From positions 310,001-374,000 of the forward strand of contig JADBYT010000002.1 of assembly GCA_020402865.1 (NCBI GenBank): 64,000 nt of DNA. Reading direction: 5' to 3'. The position numbers and the translations under genes are program-made. Shown here piece by piece: positions 1,569 to 52,603 of the stretch. Source of the DNA: Bacteroidota bacterium. GTDB taxonomy: Bacteria; Bacteroidota; Bacteroidia; Palsa-965. The first letter of the stretch is position 1; every line of letters starts with the position of its first letter. A model generated the notes under the pieces. That model did not search any database. It saw only the letters and a list, made by a program, of their open reading frames with translations, and was not told where the DNA came from.

Positions 1569-2453
1569 TCAGTATTTCGCACCGCCCGCACCAATCTGCT
1601 CAATCGGGTGCCAGGTGGTTTTTACTTCCTGCAGGTCGATAATGAAATACGGATTTTGTGCTGCGGCATCACTCCAGTTGTTTTCGCTCCAGTTGAATGT
1701 ACGTTTCACATTGGCCGCTGCTTTTTCCTGCGCCAGTTTCCAGTCGGCGGCGCTGCCCGCTGCCATTACCAGTGCATTCACATCCATGTGTGAGGCCATG
1801 TGGCTGAGCAGCTCTTTGATTTGGCCGGTGAGAATATTTATCACACCGCCGGGCAAATCGGAAGTAGCCAGCACTTCGCCAAACGTAATGGCGCAAAGCG
1901 GCTTTTGTTCCGAAGCCAGCACCACACAAGTGTTGCCGCCGGCAATTACCGGCGCAATAACCGATACAAGCCCGGCCAGCGACGTATCCTGCGGTGCCAC
2001 CACAGCCACCACGCCCGCAGGCTCTGGCACCGAAAAGTTGAAGTGCGACGATTGCACCGGATTCACCGTGCTGAACAGTTGCTGATATTTATCGCACCAG
2101 CCGGCATAATGCACCAGGCGGTCAACCGAAAGAGCCACTTCTTTTTCGGCGGCGGCTTTGGTGAGGCCCTGCTGCATGAGTTCTTCAATAAACTGTGCCT
2201 TGCGGCCTTCCAGCATTTCGGCTATTCGATAGAGAATCTGACTGCGGTTGTAGCCGTTGCGGCCGCTCCAGCCGCCAAATGCGCCGCGTGCAGCCACCAC
2301 GGCATTCCTGAAATCCTTGCGCGAACTCAGACAAATATTTGCCAGCACCTTGCCCTTTTTATCCGTAAGCGGATAATAACGGCCTGATTCAGTACGCGGA
2401 AATTGTCCGCCAATATAGAGCTTGTAGGTTTTCAGGATTTCGATGCGCGACAT
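1569..2453 (-). CDS. Truncated aldehyde-dehydrogenase-family protein lacking the catalytic domain
   Basis: A 294-residue protein with an ALDH N-terminal fold: LYIGGQFPRTESGRYYPL near the start, then GGNTCVVLASEQKP and LPGGVINILTG around residues 170-205, all corresponding to the NAD-binding half. Full ALDHs have about 480-500 residues. The PWN motif is replaced by APQDTSL, the ELGGK and catalytic-cysteine segments are missing, and the protein ends after VKTTWHPIEQIGAGGAKY. It is therefore probably not a dehydrogenase by itself. Such short ALDH-like proteins are known beside full-length ALDH genes in other bacteria; no partner is visible here. The reading frame is intact. It heads the run into the toxin-antitoxin pair (36-bp gap). 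Confidence 0.75.
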   Translation of the reverse strand: MSRIEILKTYKLYIGGQFPRTESGRYYPLTDKKGKVLANICLSSRKDFRNAVVAARGAFGGWSGRNGYNRSQILYRIAEMLEGRKAQFIEELMQQGLTKAAAEKEVALSVDRLVHYAGWCDKYQQLFSTVNPVQSSHFNFSVPEPAGVVAVVAPQDTSLAGLVSVIAPVIAGGNTCVVLASEQKPLCAITFGEVLATSDLPGGVINILTGQIKELLSHMASHMDVNALVMAAGSAADWKLAQEKAAANVKRTFNWSENNWSDAAAQNPYFIIDLQEVKTTWHPIEQIGAGGAKY

Positions 2454-2472
2454 AACAGGTGAATTTCGTCAT

Positions 2473-2504
2473 CTAAGATACCCAAATCTCCCGAAACAGA
2501 TCAA
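2473..2504 (-). promoter_or_regulatory. Candidate promoter of the ALDH-like gene
   Basis: On the minus strand TATCTTAG (2480-2473) matches the Bacteroidota -7 element TAnnTTTG at all but one defined base, with a TTG 21 bases upstream (2504-2502). It lies about 20 bases before the ATG at 2453. The match is imperfect. Confidence 0.35.
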
Positions 2505-2548
2505 TTTTAGCAGACTTCGATTTGTGCAACACATTCGTTAAGCTGCAT

Positions 2549-2581
2549 AAAAAAAGCTCCGGTTTTGTGTAACCGGAGCTT
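2549..2581 (-). terminator. Rho-independent terminator after the nidogen-domain T9SS gene
   Basis: An 11-bp perfect stem (2554-2564 with 2571-2581, AAGCTCCGGTT/AACCGGAGCTT) with a 6-base loop. Read on the minus strand it is followed by a run of seven T. It lies 24 bases past the stop codon at 2605. Confidence 0.9.
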
Positions 2582-2604
2582 TCAGTTCAATGCGCATATA
2601 TTCC

Positions 2605-4092
2605 TTAATTGCGAATAATTTTTACGCTGGAAACAACGCCATGTTCATTTACAAGCGAACCAAAATACAAGCCTGCCGGTACGCCGCTTAGTTCGATGAG
2701 TTGTGTATGACTGTTGATGCGCGTTTCTGAAACTACCCGCCCGGAAACGTCTGTTAACACAAATACAAGCTGATCAGAAACAGTTGCATCATGGCGAAGT
2801 GTAAGTGCCGTGTTGCCCGGATTAGGGTAAACCTGAAGTGAAGTAACTTCTGCAGGTTCTGAAATGCCGGTTACCGAAGCATCATAGTATGTGCGGATGA
2901 TTACTGTTGATGTTGAAGTTTGTGCAGGAAAACCATTGTCGCTGGCAGTTGCCGTTATTGTATAAACACCGGGAGGAAAGTCTTTCGCTCTGAACGTGCA
3001 AATGTATTCTTTATAGGCATTTTGCATTACGATTGATTCTGTGCTCATCGCTCCTGCGGGAGCATTGGTGGTGAATGAAGCCGTAACGGTCTGGTTGATT
3101 TCAGGTGTAAAAAAGCGAAATGTAATTTGTATCGAATCCTGATTCATTGTCCGCAATGTGTCGCCAGTAAACACGTCAATTGTATCGCACAGCGCACTGT
3201 TCATAATAAAAGGAGGAACGTTGCCCTGAATACCGATATTGAAATATACTTCAAGGTCATCGAGCCAGCTTACTTCATCGGCAGTGCCGTAAGGTCCGTT
3301 AAACGCATAGCCTGATGTATCAAAACGGCCAACCTGAAAATAGTCCACGCCATTTCCCTGGTTCACACCCACTGTGGCCGGCACACCGCCAAAACCATTC
3401 ACCCCTGCCGATGCATCACCTGTTGTCCATTCCATATCGCCGTAGCAGAAGCCTACATTGTTTCCCGGAGGTAAGATGCTGTCTAATCCATTTGTGATGA
3501 TAAGCTGAAAGCTGTTTCGCTTATCTGAATGGATGTTAAAATATCCCACACTATCCCATTTTATAACCATATAAGTGGGAGTAATTTTATAATACACCAA
3601 ACCACTTAAGCTGTCGCGGGTATCCACATCGGCCCAAAACGGGGCAATCATTCCTACACTGGTTGTAGGGAATGAGTCTGCAGTGAAATTGAAGTATGTA
3701 GTATCAAAGGAAATATTTCCATTGTTATTTATAAATACAGCATTTTTGGGTGTGCCGAAGTAATTAAAACTAAATGGCAACGATATACCCGGTGAGGAAA
3801 AATCATCGTTACGGTAATCGGGCGGGAAGGAGCCTTGGAAAGGCACCACAAAAAATGTCGAATCCAGAGGAATCATGCAGTTACACACGTTACTGCTTTG
3901 CAGCTGCACGGGAGGGTTTGAATACCTGGTGTGGGCTGCTTGTGTTGAAGTTGCGTTAAATACGTAACGGGTGTTTGGTTGCAGCTGCCCGGCAAGTTTC
4001 AGTTGCGCATAGGTCTCTGGAGTAATTGTAATAGACTGTGAAACGGCAGCTATTGAAAATGTCAGGAAGAAAAGTAGAAATAGCTTTTTCAT
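2605..4092 (-). CDS. Secreted nidogen (NIDO)-domain protein with T9SS type A sorting domain
   Basis: A 495-residue secreted protein. Residues 1-19 form a signal peptide (MKKLFLLFFLTFSIAAVSQS). Residues about 75-285 resemble the NIDO extracellular domain: LPFSFNYFGTP, VFINNNGNISFD, APFWADVDTRD and the GVNQGNGVDYFQVGRFD region. A beta-sandwich segment follows (about 300-400). The last 75 residues are a T9SS type A sorting domain, with LQVYPNPGNTALTL, LTDVSGRVV, LSGVPAGLYFGSL and a basic C-terminal KIIRN. The sorting domain sends the protein through the type IX system to the cell surface or medium, where it is usually cleaved. The biological target is unknown. Monocistronic, with its own terminator. 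Confidence 0.85.
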   Translation of the reverse strand: MKKLFLLFFLTFSIAAVSQSITITPETYAQLKLAGQLQPNTRYVFNATSTQAAHTRYSNPPVQLQSSNVCNCMIPLDSTFFVVPFQGSFPPDYRNDDFSSPGISLPFSFNYFGTPKNAVFINNNGNISFDTTYFNFTADSFPTTSVGMIAPFWADVDTRDSLSGLVYYKITPTYMVIKWDSVGYFNIHSDKRNSFQLIITNGLDSILPPGNNVGFCYGDMEWTTGDASAGVNGFGGVPATVGVNQGNGVDYFQVGRFDTSGYAFNGPYGTADEVSWLDDLEVYFNIGIQGNVPPFIMNSALCDTIDVFTGDTLRTMNQDSIQITFRFFTPEINQTVTASFTTNAPAGAMSTESIVMQNAYKEYICTFRAKDFPPGVYTITATASDNGFPAQTSTSTVIIRTYYDASVTGISEPAEVTSLQVYPNPGNTALTLRHDATVSDQLVFVLTDVSGRVVSETRINSHTQLIELSGVPAGLYFGSLVNEHGVVSSVKIIRN

Positions 4093-4203: not shown

Positions 4204-4611
4204 TTAACTGAGGAATTTCTTTCGGATCTCCGGCGTAGGCACCATGCACGCCTCGCGTTTTCCCCACCATTTATAGCGGTTCCGGCCAACCCAGTCATAC
4301 ACGGCATCGCGCAGGAAAGGCGGAACAATAATAAACACAAACAGCAGTGGCCAGGCTCCGCTCATGCGCCGTGCAATGCGCAGCGCGGCAGAGGAACGCT
4401 GATAGATTTTGTCGTTTTCTATCAATGCCACACTGTCTAAATTTTCGGCTTTTATGCCAAAGGGCTCAAGCAGTTTAACGGCAATTTCCGATTGCAGCGG
4501 AGCCACGCGGAAACGGTCTTTCGGGTCGTGTGTAATGATGCGGTTTACCCCGGCATTGCAAAAGTTGCAAACGCCGTCAAACAGCACAATGTATTTGCCT
4601 TCGTGGCTCAT
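4204..4611 (-). CDS. DCC-family thiol-disulfide oxidoreductase (YuxK-like)
   Basis: A 135-residue protein with the family-defining motif DGVCNFCNAGV (residues 11-21), a CxxC pair at the start of a thioredoxin-like fold, followed by DPKDRFRVAPLQSE and a C-terminal hydrophobic segment (WPLLFVFIIVPPFLRDAVYDWVG) ending in a KWWGKREAC tail. Family members are predicted thiol-disulfide exchange proteins, but the physiological substrate is not established. Its start codon overlaps the stop of the upstream lipoprotein gene (ATGA at 4611-4608), which suggests coupled translation and possibly a joint function in maturing the cysteine-containing heme-type domain of that protein; the latter is inference. 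Confidence 0.85.
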   Translation of the reverse strand: MSHEGKYIVLFDGVCNFCNAGVNRIITHDPKDRFRVAPLQSEIAVKLLEPFGIKAENLDSVALIENDKIYQRSSAALRIARRMSGAWPLLFVFIIVPPFLRDAVYDWVGRNRYKWWGKREACMVPTPEIRKKFLS

Positions 4612-6104
4612 GGTCGCACGGCGCAGGAATACGGGTCAACGGCTACTTCTATTTTGCTGCCCGGAATTACGCGCCAGTCGCCGAAGCGGATAAATACCAC
4701 GTTGCCGTTTCGTCCGCCGCAGTTTGTGCTGTGGTGCGGTGCCGGCCCGCCCGAAGCCACGTTGCGGTTGGCCACAAAGCAAATTCCTTTCGCATCATCA
4801 ACGGCCACGCCGTGTGGCTGAAAGCCGGAGTTAAGGCTGGCTTCCACCGTGTTGGTATTCGTATTAATCACATACACCGAGCCTCGGTTGCCGGGGTAAG
4901 TGGCCGTATCTTCCATGCAGGTAATAAACAGGTAAGGCGAGTTTCGTGAAATGGCCAGTTCCTGCGGATACACACCAACCGGAACCGTGGCAATCAGCTG
5001 CATGGTGGCGGCATCGAGCACGCGTATTTTGTTTGAATGCTGGCTGGTTATATAGAGCTTCGTTCCGTCGGGCGAAAAAATCATGTCGTGCGGATTCTCG
5101 CTGTTGGTGTTCAGCGGTTGTGTGGTGCCATCTATCACCACCTTGTCAGGCGAAGTGGTAAACTGCGGATCGCTGATGTCGAATTTATAAATGTAATTGC
5201 CCTGGTTGCAGGTTACGTACAGCGTATCGCCGTTTGGATGTATGGCCGAGCCGTGCGGCTGCACCAGCAGGCCCGAACCCTGAAACATCAGCTCAAACTG
5301 CATGGTGTTCAGGTTTACCTGTGCAATGCGTCCGTTCGGGTTCCAGTCCACCACGTAGGCGCGCTGTCCGTCGGGCGTAATTGAAAACGTATTCCAGCTT
5401 CCGTAGGCAATGTTTGAATTCGGCCCAAGCAAAATACGCCCCACAAACGCATCGTCTGAACAGCGGTACTTTTCAATGTAACGCCCGTTCGAAAACACCA
5501 CGTACCAGAACTGTCCGTCGGGCGAAATTTTTACGTTGTGCGGCGATTCAATTACACCCTCAGCGCCCACTTTTATCTTGCGCATCTGCACGCCTGTTTG
5601 CTGATCAAACACCGTCACTACATCACAACCCTGATTGGTCACGTAATATTTTGCCCGGTTCGGATTATCACTGAATGCCACGTAACCGTTGGCATCGGGC
5701 GCACCGGCATCAATCCAGTTACGCAGACGAATTACCTCTTCGCGGCTCAGCGGTTCGTCCTGCAAAGGCATCGTAGGCTCGGCAAATACGCCCAAATCTT
5801 CGAAATGATTGGTAAACAAAAACAGCGTGCTGTATTCGTGCGCATACGGAATCACCACCGCACCGTTCCTGTCGCCCCGCATCAGCGAAGTCCACGAACT
5901 CAGGTCAAGCCCCGCTGCAGCCCCCGCACTCTGTGCATTGTGGCAGCCCGAAACGGCACATTTGGTAATCAGAATTTTGGCTATTTCTACCGGATATCCG
6001 CGCTCCGTTAAATCGGCCGGCATGTCGCGGCGGCAGCCGCTTACAAACATTCCCGCTGCTATTCCCGCACTTCCCAGCAGCATCAAAAAACGTTGTGCAC
6101 GCAT
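4608..6104 (-). CDS. Lipoprotein with cytochrome-c-like CX4CH domain and YncE-type beta-propeller
   Basis: A 498-residue protein. A lipoprotein signal ends in the lipobox VSGC (cysteine at about residue 24). Residues about 40-135 form a cytochrome-c-like domain with the heme-attachment motif CAVSGCH (CX4CH rather than CX2CH) and a TMP methionine near residue 110 that could be an axial ligand. From about 150 there is a YVTN/YncE-type beta-propeller, with repeats such as VKISPDGQFWYVV, AIHPNGDTLYVTC and MIFSPDGTKLYIT. It is probably an outer-membrane or periplasmic redox or binding protein; no substrate can be named. The gene overlaps the DCC oxidoreductase gene by 4 bases. Confidence 0.8.
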   Translation of the reverse strand: MRAQRFLMLLGSAGIAAGMFVSGCRRDMPADLTERGYPVEIAKILITKCAVSGCHNAQSAGAAAGLDLSSWTSLMRGDRNGAVVIPYAHEYSTLFLFTNHFEDLGVFAEPTMPLQDEPLSREEVIRLRNWIDAGAPDANGYVAFSDNPNRAKYYVTNQGCDVVTVFDQQTGVQMRKIKVGAEGVIESPHNVKISPDGQFWYVVFSNGRYIEKYRCSDDAFVGRILLGPNSNIAYGSWNTFSITPDGQRAYVVDWNPNGRIAQVNLNTMQFELMFQGSGLLVQPHGSAIHPNGDTLYVTCNQGNYIYKFDISDPQFTTSPDKVVIDGTTQPLNTNSENPHDMIFSPDGTKLYITSQHSNKIRVLDAATMQLIATVPVGVYPQELAISRNSPYLFITCMEDTATYPGNRGSVYVINTNTNTVEASLNSGFQPHGVAVDDAKGICFVANRNVASGGPAPHHSTNCGGRNGNVVFIRFGDWRVIPGSKIEVAVDPYSCAVRP

Positions 6105-50824: not shown

Positions 50825-50855
50825 TTGCTCAAATAAAAATCACTCCATACATTTG
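50825..50855 (+). promoter_or_regulatory. rpsU promoter
   Basis: TTG at 50825-50827, 20-base spacer, TACATTTG at 50848-50855 (exact), 33 bases before the rpsU ATG. Confidence 0.7.
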
Positions 50856-50888: not shown

Positions 50889-51083
50889 ATGATTATCGTT
50901 GCTGTAAAAGAAGGCGAATCGCTCGAAAAAGCACTCAAAAAGTTCAAGAAGAAATTCGAGAAAACCGGCGTAGTTCGTGCCCTGCGCGATCGCCAGAAAT
51001 TCACCAAGCCTTCTGTTCGCAAACGCGAAACCAAACTCAAAGCGATTTATCGCCAGCAAATGCACCAGAACCTCGAAGCGTAA
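50889..51083 (+). CDS. rpsU: 30S ribosomal protein bS21
   Basis: A 64-residue basic protein, MIIVAVKEGESLEKALKKFK at the start and EKTGVVRALRDRQKFTKPSV in the middle, a full match to bS21 of Bacteroidota. It binds the 30S platform near the 3' end of 16S rRNA. In this phylum bS21 is known to help block the anti-SD sequence, and rpsU of some species carries its own SD for autoregulation. Here the leader before the ATG (CCAATCAGTTCAAA) has no SD. xerC follows after 110 bases with a large hairpin between. Confidence 0.97.
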   Translation: MIIVAVKEGESLEKALKKFKKKFEKTGVVRALRDRQKFTKPSVRKRETKLKAIYRQQMHQNLEA

Positions 51084-51126
51084 GCTTCAGGCTGGCCGCA
51101 TCGCTTTTTTGAGGCCTTACATATTG

Positions 51127-51185
51127 GAAATACACACTCTCCGGGCAACTTTTTTAAGTTGATCTCGTTCAAGAGTGTGTATTTC
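51127..51185 (+). other. Large stem-loop between rpsU and xerC
   Basis: A 14-bp outer stem (51127-51140 with 51172-51185, GAAATACACACTCT/AGAGTGTGTATTTC) encloses a 6-bp inner hairpin (CAACTT/AAGTTG at 51146-51151 with 51156-51161). The right arm ends 8 bases before the xerC GTG and is followed by TTTTT. It may terminate or attenuate rpsU transcription, or control xerC translation. Confidence 0.65.
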
Positions 51186-51193
51186 TTTTTCTC

Positions 51194-52114
51194 GTGAGCG
51201 AAGACAGCATCTCCCGTTTTATCGACTATCTCGCATTTGAAAAGCGATTCTCCCCGCATACGCAAACCGCTTATCGGGCTGATCTTATTCAATTACGTGA
51301 TTATCTGGTTGTTACTTACGATAACATCCTTCCCGAAGAAGCCAATTACCAGCTCATCCGTTCATGGATTGTTGAGCTGATGAATCAGGGCATATCTGCC
51401 CGCTCCGTAAACCGGAAAATTACCACCCTGCGCACATTTTACCGCTTTCTCATGCGCGAAGGCCGGGTAAAAGTAAATCCCATGCTCAAAATTCAGGGCC
51501 CAAAAACAGCCCGCCGCCTGCCCGAGTATGTGGAAGAAAAACAAATGCAGCAACTGCTCGACGGACGCGCATTTAATCCCGGCGAAGGAGAAGATACCTA
51601 CGATGCCGAACTGGCCCGGCTTATAGTGGAACTTTTGTACGGCACCGGCATCCGCCTGGCCGAACTCATCGGTTTGCGGCAGGATGATTTTAATTTCTCC
51701 CGCAATACCATTAAAGTACTCGGCAAACGAAACAAGGAACGCATTGTGCCTGTGCCCGTTGCCCTTGCCGAACTTGCGAAAGGCTTCGTTGCCCTCAAAA
51801 CCACACGCCATATTCAACCCGACCCCGACGATGGTATAGTGTATCTGCTCCAGCAAAATACCGGAAAAAAACTTCCCCGGAAGTTTGTGTACACGCTTGT
51901 GAGACGTTACCTTAGCTTAGTCACTACTATTGATAAAAGAAGTCCACACGTGCTGCGTCACACTTTTGCCACCCACATGCTCAATAATGGCGCTGATCTC
52001 AACGCCATCAAAGAGCTTCTGGGCCACGCAAACCTCTCTGCCACCCAGGTGTACACGCACAACACGGTTGAAAAGTTGAAAAACATCTATCAGCAGGCAC
52101 ATCCCCGTGCCTGA
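51194..52114 (+). CDS. xerC: Tyrosine recombinase XerC/XerD-type
   Basis: A 306-residue tyrosine recombinase. The N-terminal SAM-like DNA-binding domain (FIDYLAFEKRFSPHTQTAYR) precedes the catalytic domain, with Arg in YGTGIRLAELIGLRQDDF, Lys in VLGKRNKERIVPVP, the HxxR box in SPHVLRHTFATHMLNNG, LLGHANLSATQVYTH (His and the nucleophilic Tyr near residue 290). It resolves chromosome dimers at dif with a partner recombinase. The start is GTG at 51194. In Bacteroidota xerC commonly lies between rpsU and hpf, as here. Confidence 0.92.
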   Translation: MSEDSISRFIDYLAFEKRFSPHTQTAYRADLIQLRDYLVVTYDNILPEEANYQLIRSWIVELMNQGISARSVNRKITTLRTFYRFLMREGRVKVNPMLKIQGPKTARRLPEYVEEKQMQQLLDGRAFNPGEGEDTYDAELARLIVELLYGTGIRLAELIGLRQDDFNFSRNTIKVLGKRNKERIVPVPVALAELAKGFVALKTTRHIQPDPDDGIVYLLQQNTGKKLPRKFVYTLVRRYLSLVTTIDKRSPHVLRHTFATHMLNNGADLNAIKELLGHANLSATQVYTHNTVEKLKNIYQQAHPRA

Positions 52115-52127
52115 TTAACACACTAAA

Positions 52128-52134
52128 AAGGAGG
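52128..52134 (+). promoter_or_regulatory. Strong Shine-Dalgarno sequence of hpf
   Basis: AAGGAGG with an 8-base spacer to the ATG at 52143, complementary to the usual 16S rRNA 3' end. The neighbouring starts (rpsU, xerC, tuf, rplL) have nothing similar. Confidence 0.85.
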
Positions 52135-52142
52135 AACTTGTT

Positions 52143-52442
52143 ATGGACATTCAAATTCAATCCATACACTTCGACGCCGATCGAAAACTCATCAGCTTTA
52201 TTGAAGAAAAAGTAGGAAAACTCACCCATTTCTACGACGGCATCATCCGCAGCGAAATCTTCCTGCGCCTCGATAAATCCGACAGCTCAACGAATAAAGT
52301 AGCCGAAATTAAACTCAACGTACCCGGTACTGATCTCTACGTAAAGCGCCAGTGCCGCACCTTCGAAGAAGCTATCGATACCGGAATCGAAGCAATAAGC
52401 CGTCAGGTGAAAAAACATAAGGAAAAATTGAGGGGAAAGTAA
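52143..52442 (+). CDS. hpf: Ribosome hibernation promoting factor (short HPF/RaiA type)
   Basis: A 99-residue S30AE-domain protein: MDIQIQSIHFDADRKLISFI, KVGKLTHFYDGIIRSEIFLR, and basic C-terminal helix SRQVKKHKEKLRGK, all typical of HPF/RaiA. It binds the decoding centre of the 30S subunit and stops translation in slow-growth or stationary phase. Unlike the long HPFs it lacks the C-terminal dimerisation domain. It has a strong SD, in contrast to its neighbours, and a rho-independent terminator. It is the last gene of the rpsU-xerC-hpf run. Confidence 0.92.
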   Translation: MDIQIQSIHFDADRKLISFIEEKVGKLTHFYDGIIRSEIFLRLDKSDSSTNKVAEIKLNVPGTDLYVKRQCRTFEEAIDTGIEAISRQVKKHKEKLRGK

Positions 52443-52463: not shown

Positions 52464-52498
52464 CCCGGCTCACAGTTTATCTGTAGCCGGGTTTTTTT
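52464..52498 (+). terminator. Rho-independent terminator of hpf
   Basis: CCCGGCT pairs with AGCCGGG (52464-52470 with 52485-52491), with an inner ACAG/CTGT helix and a TTTAT loop, and seven T follow (52492-52498). Confidence 0.93.
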
Positions 52499-52603
52499 AT
52501 TGATAATCAAGGAGGTGCGAAAACCGGTTGGTTTAAGGGCTTCAAATGCAGCGAGAGATAAATGATGTAAAGTGCGGCGATACAGAAAAAAAACATGCGT
52601 GAA

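Follow-up and report, generated by a model that had tools for sequence, protein, structure and literature searches.

A Shine-Dalgarno sequence recurs upstream of the ribosome hibernation factor gene hpf in Bacteroidia

Introduction

The closest described system is the extended Shine-Dalgarno (SD) sequence of rpsU, the gene for bS21, in F. johnsoniae and other Bacteroidota (McNutt et al. 2023, PMC9976891). According to the relevant passages of that paper, the 16S rRNA tail of F. johnsoniae is held by bS21, bS18 and bS6, and loss of bS21 frees it. When bS21 is lost, reporters with a strong SD are translated more, tuf with AGGAGGU among them. For GFP with an introduced AGGAGGU, the effect was more than 2-fold in the bS21 delta-C strain, 70% in Y54A and 40–70% in the depletion strain. 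In the wild type, a strong SD gave no increase in expression. Autoregulation by bS21 needs the extended SD, and in the view of the same passages SDs exert control in Flavobacteriales through this autoregulation only. They also note, citing Jha et al. 2021, that ribosomal genes such as rpsR, rplE, rplF and rplI carry moderate SDs in some Bacteroidia.

Here, we analysed a 64,000-nucleotide stretch of DNA from a Bacteroidota bacterium (the window) in which an SD precedes hpf. As in the rpsU system, a gene with a role in translation has an SD in a phylum whose ribosomes conceal the anti-SD. In contrast to what those passages of PMC9976891 describe, it belongs to hpf, two cistrons from an rpsU that itself has no SD; its helix is 8 bp rather than 9–13 bp; and the genome has further SD-led genes. 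The moderate ribosomal-gene SDs of the same source fall in the same range of helix strength, and rplE, rplF and rplI are SD-led here too. Unlike that set, hpf, gldK, gldM, gldN, porP/sprF and nrdB do not encode ribosomal proteins, and the relevant passages leave them unmentioned. Our literature search found no published hpf SD in Bacteroidota; the lists of Jha et al. 2021 may already contain hpf. The term hpf occurs 0 times and hibernation once in PMC9976891. Both terms are missing from PMC8710568 and PMC6847099, and hibernation from PMC3155529 and PMC10783764.

Results

The rpsU-xerC-hpf locus

The locus comprises the following features, numbered by window position.

50848–50855, plus strand: TACATTTG, a -7 promoter motif match upstream of rpsU, fitting TAnnTTTG
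50889–51083, plus strand: rpsU (bS21, 64 aa, Tyr54 present; S21p, PF01165), no SD
51126–51190, plus strand: terminator-like long hairpin and U-run in the rpsU-xerC gap, from the fold of 51084–51210
51194–52114, plus strand: xerC-type tyrosine recombinase gene, no SD; GTG start uncertain
52127–52134, plus strand: hpf SD, AAAGGAGG, with 8 consecutive pairs to the 16S tail possible
52143–52442, plus strand: hpf, short-type ribosome hibernation promoting factor, 99 aa (TIGR00741, PF02482)
52464–52498, plus strand: terminator-like stem-loop, CCCGGCT...AGCCGGG plus T7, 3' of hpf, found by reading the sequence and absent from the pattern-scan list

The hpf product (HPF/YfiA, Ribosomal_S30AE) scores above both family cut-offs, with 44.0 against 40.9 bits for TIGR00741 and 70.3 against 23.7 bits for PF02482. 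Its start codon was set by homology. In the leader, ACACTAAAAAGGAGGAACTTGTTATGGAC, AAGGAGG occupies 52128–52134 and an 8-nt spacer (52135–52142) leads to the ATG at 52143, exactly as an earlier sequence-only reading had described; the stop codon ends at 52442. Pairing of AAAGGAGG with the 16S tail yields -12.2 kcal/mol (ViennaRNA duplexfold), and the SD is largely unpaired in the centroid fold. The sequence complements CCUCC and sits at SD spacing ahead of the true start, which makes hpf an SD-led gene. The same contig yielded 308 ORFs over 454 kb, of which hpf ranked second for SD strength, with starts taken from a crude codon score that missed nrdB through start choice. The earlier reading was also right that rpsU and xerC lack an SD. 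The rpsU leader is A-rich, with a best pairing of -1.3, and xerC has none. The best match of the xerC-type gene is TIGR02224, under its cut-off (293 against 335 bits).

The 16S 3' end could be read in three genomes of the same order (G002, G009 and G010). In all three it reads GGAATACCTCCTTTCT and contains CCUCC, the anti-SD that the earlier reading presupposed; the genome's own copy stops at the contig end. The corresponding loci in G010, G002 and G009 (L091, L092 and L093) have the 3' end AAUACCUCCUUUCU. We take AACACCUCC to be the usual 16S 3' end of Bacteroidia, and this order may differ from it in the base preceding A1534. In F. johnsoniae, Tyr54 of bS21 stacks on A1534. This residue is present in 11/11 bS21 sequences of the order, where the pocket was read at bS21 only. 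In the class it occurs in 76 of 83 rpsU products, and in 36/36 of these whose hpf has an SD (read by absolute position). Tyr54, redirecting the 16S tail, is one mark of the extended-SD class. Another is a helix beyond about -13 kcal/mol that is the strongest of the ribosomal genes; hpf, at -12.2, falls short of this, the energies in the relevant passages of PMC9976891 coming from another program, free_scan.

The hpf SD within the order

Twelve genomes in three genera represent the window's order, with hpf in 11/12 and rpsU in 11/12. All 11 genomes with hpf have rpsU upstream of it, on the same strand and within 2.5 kb. The main hpf has GGAGG in six of these, a weakened form in three and neither in two; the tail used to score hpf and rpsU leaders within the order carried E. 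coli-like 5' bases. Five order genomes contain extra divergent hpf paralogues outside the rpsU locus, one or two each and six in all (L014–L019), of which L018 has an in-frame stop. None of the six is preceded by an SD. Hence, the SD trait is tied to the rpsU-xerC-hpf locus rather than to hibernation factors as such.

The hpf SD across Bacteroidia

A strong SD was defined as one of -8 kcal/mol or below within -22 to -4 of the start, using duplexfold and the tail ACCUCCUUUCU. The class set covered about 14 kb around hpf (less near contig ends) in 100 genomes, with homology-anchored starts. Strong SDs precede hpf in 39 of 101 Bacteroidia genomes and 17 of 45 families. These 101 are the 11 of the order and 90 high-scoring genomes picked from about 155 listed places (hpf occurs in 282/296 genomes), so low-scoring hpf is under-represented. 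Outside the order the count is 33/90. Control genes rarely have a strong SD: xerC 1/96, tuf 0/68, secE 1/65, nusG 3/62, rplK 0/65, rplA 2/65, rplJ 1/65, rplL 0/64 and rpoB 0/64. Together these nine give 8/614 over the 101 genomes, and what the earlier reading said of neighbouring genes, that they lack SDs, is true of the nine taken as a group.

A chance purine run, or a sequence bound by a protein that recognises RNA or DNA, could mimic an SD. Such an origin would fit the finding, in this one genome, that AGGAGG-N4-10-ATG is no commoner than the reversed pattern (108 against 131 genome-wide); a general enrichment of SDs was accordingly rejected. However, shuffling all 101 hpf leaders over 100 rounds produced a mean of 1.6 strong SDs and a maximum of 6, against 39 observed, and a mock window gave 2/101. 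The distance to the ATG is also fixed, at 4–9 nt in 38/38 leaders with a GGAGG or GGGGG core, and similar SDs occur on unrelated genes. We regard a chance or protein-binding origin as highly improbable. Its recurrence, its constant distance to the ATG and the rarity of such sites before neighbouring genes show that the SD is genuine and selectively maintained. From these leader comparisons it is real, recurs beyond chance and appears selected, and its presence in many lineages suggests that it is kept for a purpose.

The distribution is patchy by family. All sampled members of f4, f20, f32, f38 and f55 have the SD, and none of f2, f15, f52 and others. A further sample comprised 80 named contigs, and 42 of them have an hpf SD (L247, L248 and L276 among them having G runs, not GGAGG), but these loci were drawn with a partly SD-bearing hpf alignment and overlap the class set, so 42/80 is no independent rate. 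Among the named contigs, Pedobacter (3/3), Mucilaginibacter and Daejeonella, all Sphingobacteriaceae, carry an SD on rpsU as well as on hpf. On rpsU alone, an SD is found in the records of Algoriphagus, Lunatimonas, Cyclobacterium and Lunatibacter. On hpf alone, it is found in many MAGs labelled Bacteroidales, in agreement with the relevant passages of PMC9976891, which report strong rpsU SDs to be absent in Bacteroidales.

Relation to the rpsU SD

No strong SD precedes rpsU in the 11 order genomes that hold it. In the class, strong rpsU SDs occur at 18/83 loci and in 11/39 families. In the remaining 18 genomes rpsU was found outside the hpf locus, with SDs of -8 or below in 3/18 (G021, -17.6; G052, -13.5; G286, -8.0) when the count is restricted to the start closest to the usual N-terminus. 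Over all genomes, the strongest helix at the locus is -13.9 kcal/mol for hpf, against -17.2 for the extended SDs of rpsU.

We placed both traits on a FastTree phylogeny of 100 genomes (35/100 rows under half filled, one row left out). On this tree there are at least 17 changes of the hpf SD, and 11 of the rpsU SD. The hpf SD is, hence, dispensable. A trade-off between the two SDs was rejected: there are 9 independent pairs with a median p of 1, which is no association on the tree, and Sphingobacteriaceae carry both. As judged from this tree and these leaders, the hpf SD is easily gained or lost and is no fixed substitute for rpsU autoregulation.

Transcripts and reinitiation

The motif TAnnTTTG, which we take to be the Bacteroidota -7 promoter motif, lies within -80 to -15 of rpsU at 76/83 class loci and in 11/11 order genomes. 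For other genes the same interval holds 0 to 6 matches per gene (62–101 loci each), and no comparable motif was found near xerC or hpf at the class loci. A promoter for hpf inside xerC was considered and rejected: matches occur within -200 to -15 at 35/100 loci but within -80 to -15 at only 3/101. The distant matches can be read as xerC coding sequence, namely His-Thr-Phe-Ala codons. The hairpin between rpsU and xerC has a z of -4.59, and 0/200 shuffles of 51084–51210 fold equally well. Across the class, 51/82 rpsU-xerC gaps combine a T-run with a stem of at least 12 pairs, against 1.9 in shuffles. Since this terminator-like hairpin follows rpsU and the promoter motif is conserved at rpsU only, the transcripts that encode bS21 and HPF probably differ in amount. 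For its part, hpf is probably transcribed either through read-through or from a promoter not yet recognised. Downstream of hpf, the window has tRNA-like stretches and then tuf.

Another reading is reinitiation, in which the SD holds ribosomes finishing xerC so that they restart at hpf. The median xerC-hpf gap of 18 nt in SD-bearing genomes would suit this, and most SD-led genes here start 12–51 nt past a same-strand gene or overlap it. However, the gap is alike in SD-bearing (37, median 18) and SD-less genomes (59, median 23; p = 0.54). The SD is also retained where no adjacent xerC was found (2/2 genomes of family f27) and at gaps of 50–211 nt (3/3 genomes of family f20). Operon-internal genes are not enriched at -8 or below (3/139 against 2/166). 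Given the equal gaps and this lack of enrichment, reinitiation was rejected, and we consider it quite unlikely.

Other SD-led genes in this genome

Readable AGGAGG-N4-10-ATG contexts from 454 kb of contig C2, the window and loci L371–L425 number 89 distinct cases. An open, coding-like frame follows in 23 rows, and about 18 genes remain once a duplicate count of one gene and four apparent internal ATGs are removed. Strong SDs precede gldK, gldM, gldN, two porP/sprF genes, rplE (L5), rplF (L6; GGAGG), rplI (L9), nrdB and argC. An OmpA/PD40 protein gene and a sigma-factor-like gene are also SD-led. Here, argC was named by eye and gldK by place and sequence, its Pfam match being the FGE-sulfatase domain. 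Hence, hpf is one of a small SD-led set in an otherwise SD-poor genome, and the idea that it is the sole SD-led gene was rejected. The sequence-only reading suggested that hibernation factor synthesis, rather than bS21 itself, is tied to anti-SD availability. This is supported in part, insofar as the hpf SD recurs and rpsU has no strong SD in 11/11 order genomes. It is not supported as a singling out of hpf, since equal SDs precede about ten or more of this genome's other genes.

Within the order, the gldN SD occurs in 8/8 genomes of genera g1 and g3 and 0/3 of g2, scoring one of several family members per genome (not the best-scoring in G011; none in G009). The rplI GGAGG was seen by eye in 7/8 and 0/3, and the nrdB SD in 7/10. 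The gldN and rplI SDs are better conserved in the order than that of hpf. The rpsR leaders were judged in 7/11 rows, three being anchored on an internal GTG and one cut. In the class outside the order, SDs occur at gldN in 5/28 and at nrdB in 0/29, against 33/90 for hpf, which makes hpf the most widely recurrent of the three genes checked at this level.

The main rival to a regulatory role is a plain constitutive one. The pocket would be leaky, and the SD would set the start codon and make selected genes more productive whatever the bS21 status. The functionally mixed SD-led set fits such tuning of expression better than a hibernation switch, as does the nrdB SD, common in the order and absent from 29/29 class genomes outside it. 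On the other side, SD-like sequence is scarcer before starts than expected (mean -1.00/-0.80 against -1.51/-2.05 for mock), and the wild-type F. johnsoniae result in the passages of PMC9976891 cited above speaks against a constitutive gain. We treat a constitutive SD as a serious possibility, though one that falls short of even chances.

Discussion

We place about even confidence in the following explanation. The hpf SD is genuine and selectively maintained, belongs to a small SD-led set, and lets 30S subunits with an exposed anti-SD favour hpf. In Bacteroidia, the anti-SD is normally hidden in the bS21-bS18-bS6 pocket, as is known in F. johnsoniae. We infer from this that hpf mRNA would be initiated best by the 30S subpopulation whose anti-SD is exposed, for example subunits lacking bS21. 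Accumulation of immature or bS21-poor subunits might then raise the level of hibernation factor. The hpf SD is about as strong as AGGAGGU and weaker than the extended rpsU SD; hence, a modest rise in hpf translation would be expected with bS21-poor ribosomes. The same effect would act jointly on the gld and por genes, rplE, rplF, rplI and nrdB in this lineage, not on hpf alone.

A wider proposal, which we find rather doubtful, is a regulon of anti-SD exposure in Bacteroidia. It would comprise hpf, most widely, together with the type IX secretion/gliding genes gldK, gldM, gldN and porP/sprF, the genes for the large-subunit proteins L5, L6 and L9, and nrdB, in a small set tuned by lineage. The 30S platform pocket would switch these genes together by holding or releasing the 16S tail, and bS21-poor ribosomes would make hibernation factor and shift their output to the set. 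If an SD before hpf is a recurrent feature of other Bacteroidia, entry into hibernation could be under the control of ribosomes whose anti-SD is exposed. If true, the physiological role of 'specialised ribosomes' would extend past supplying the protein that they themselves lack.

Two details of the SD-bearing sequences deserve record. A second AAGGAGGTG lies at 52509–52517, in the gap beyond the hpf terminator. No start codon follows it at a distance suited to an SD: the closest ATG, at 52546, is 28 nt on and opens a short frame only. This copy is probably due to chance. The gliding/type IX secretion operon has a strong SD on three of four genes (gldK, gldM and gldN, not gldL). At locus L371 (G000, contig C8:1–12500), gldN lies at 753–1613, gldM at 1642–3291 and gldK at 4283–5689, all on the minus strand.
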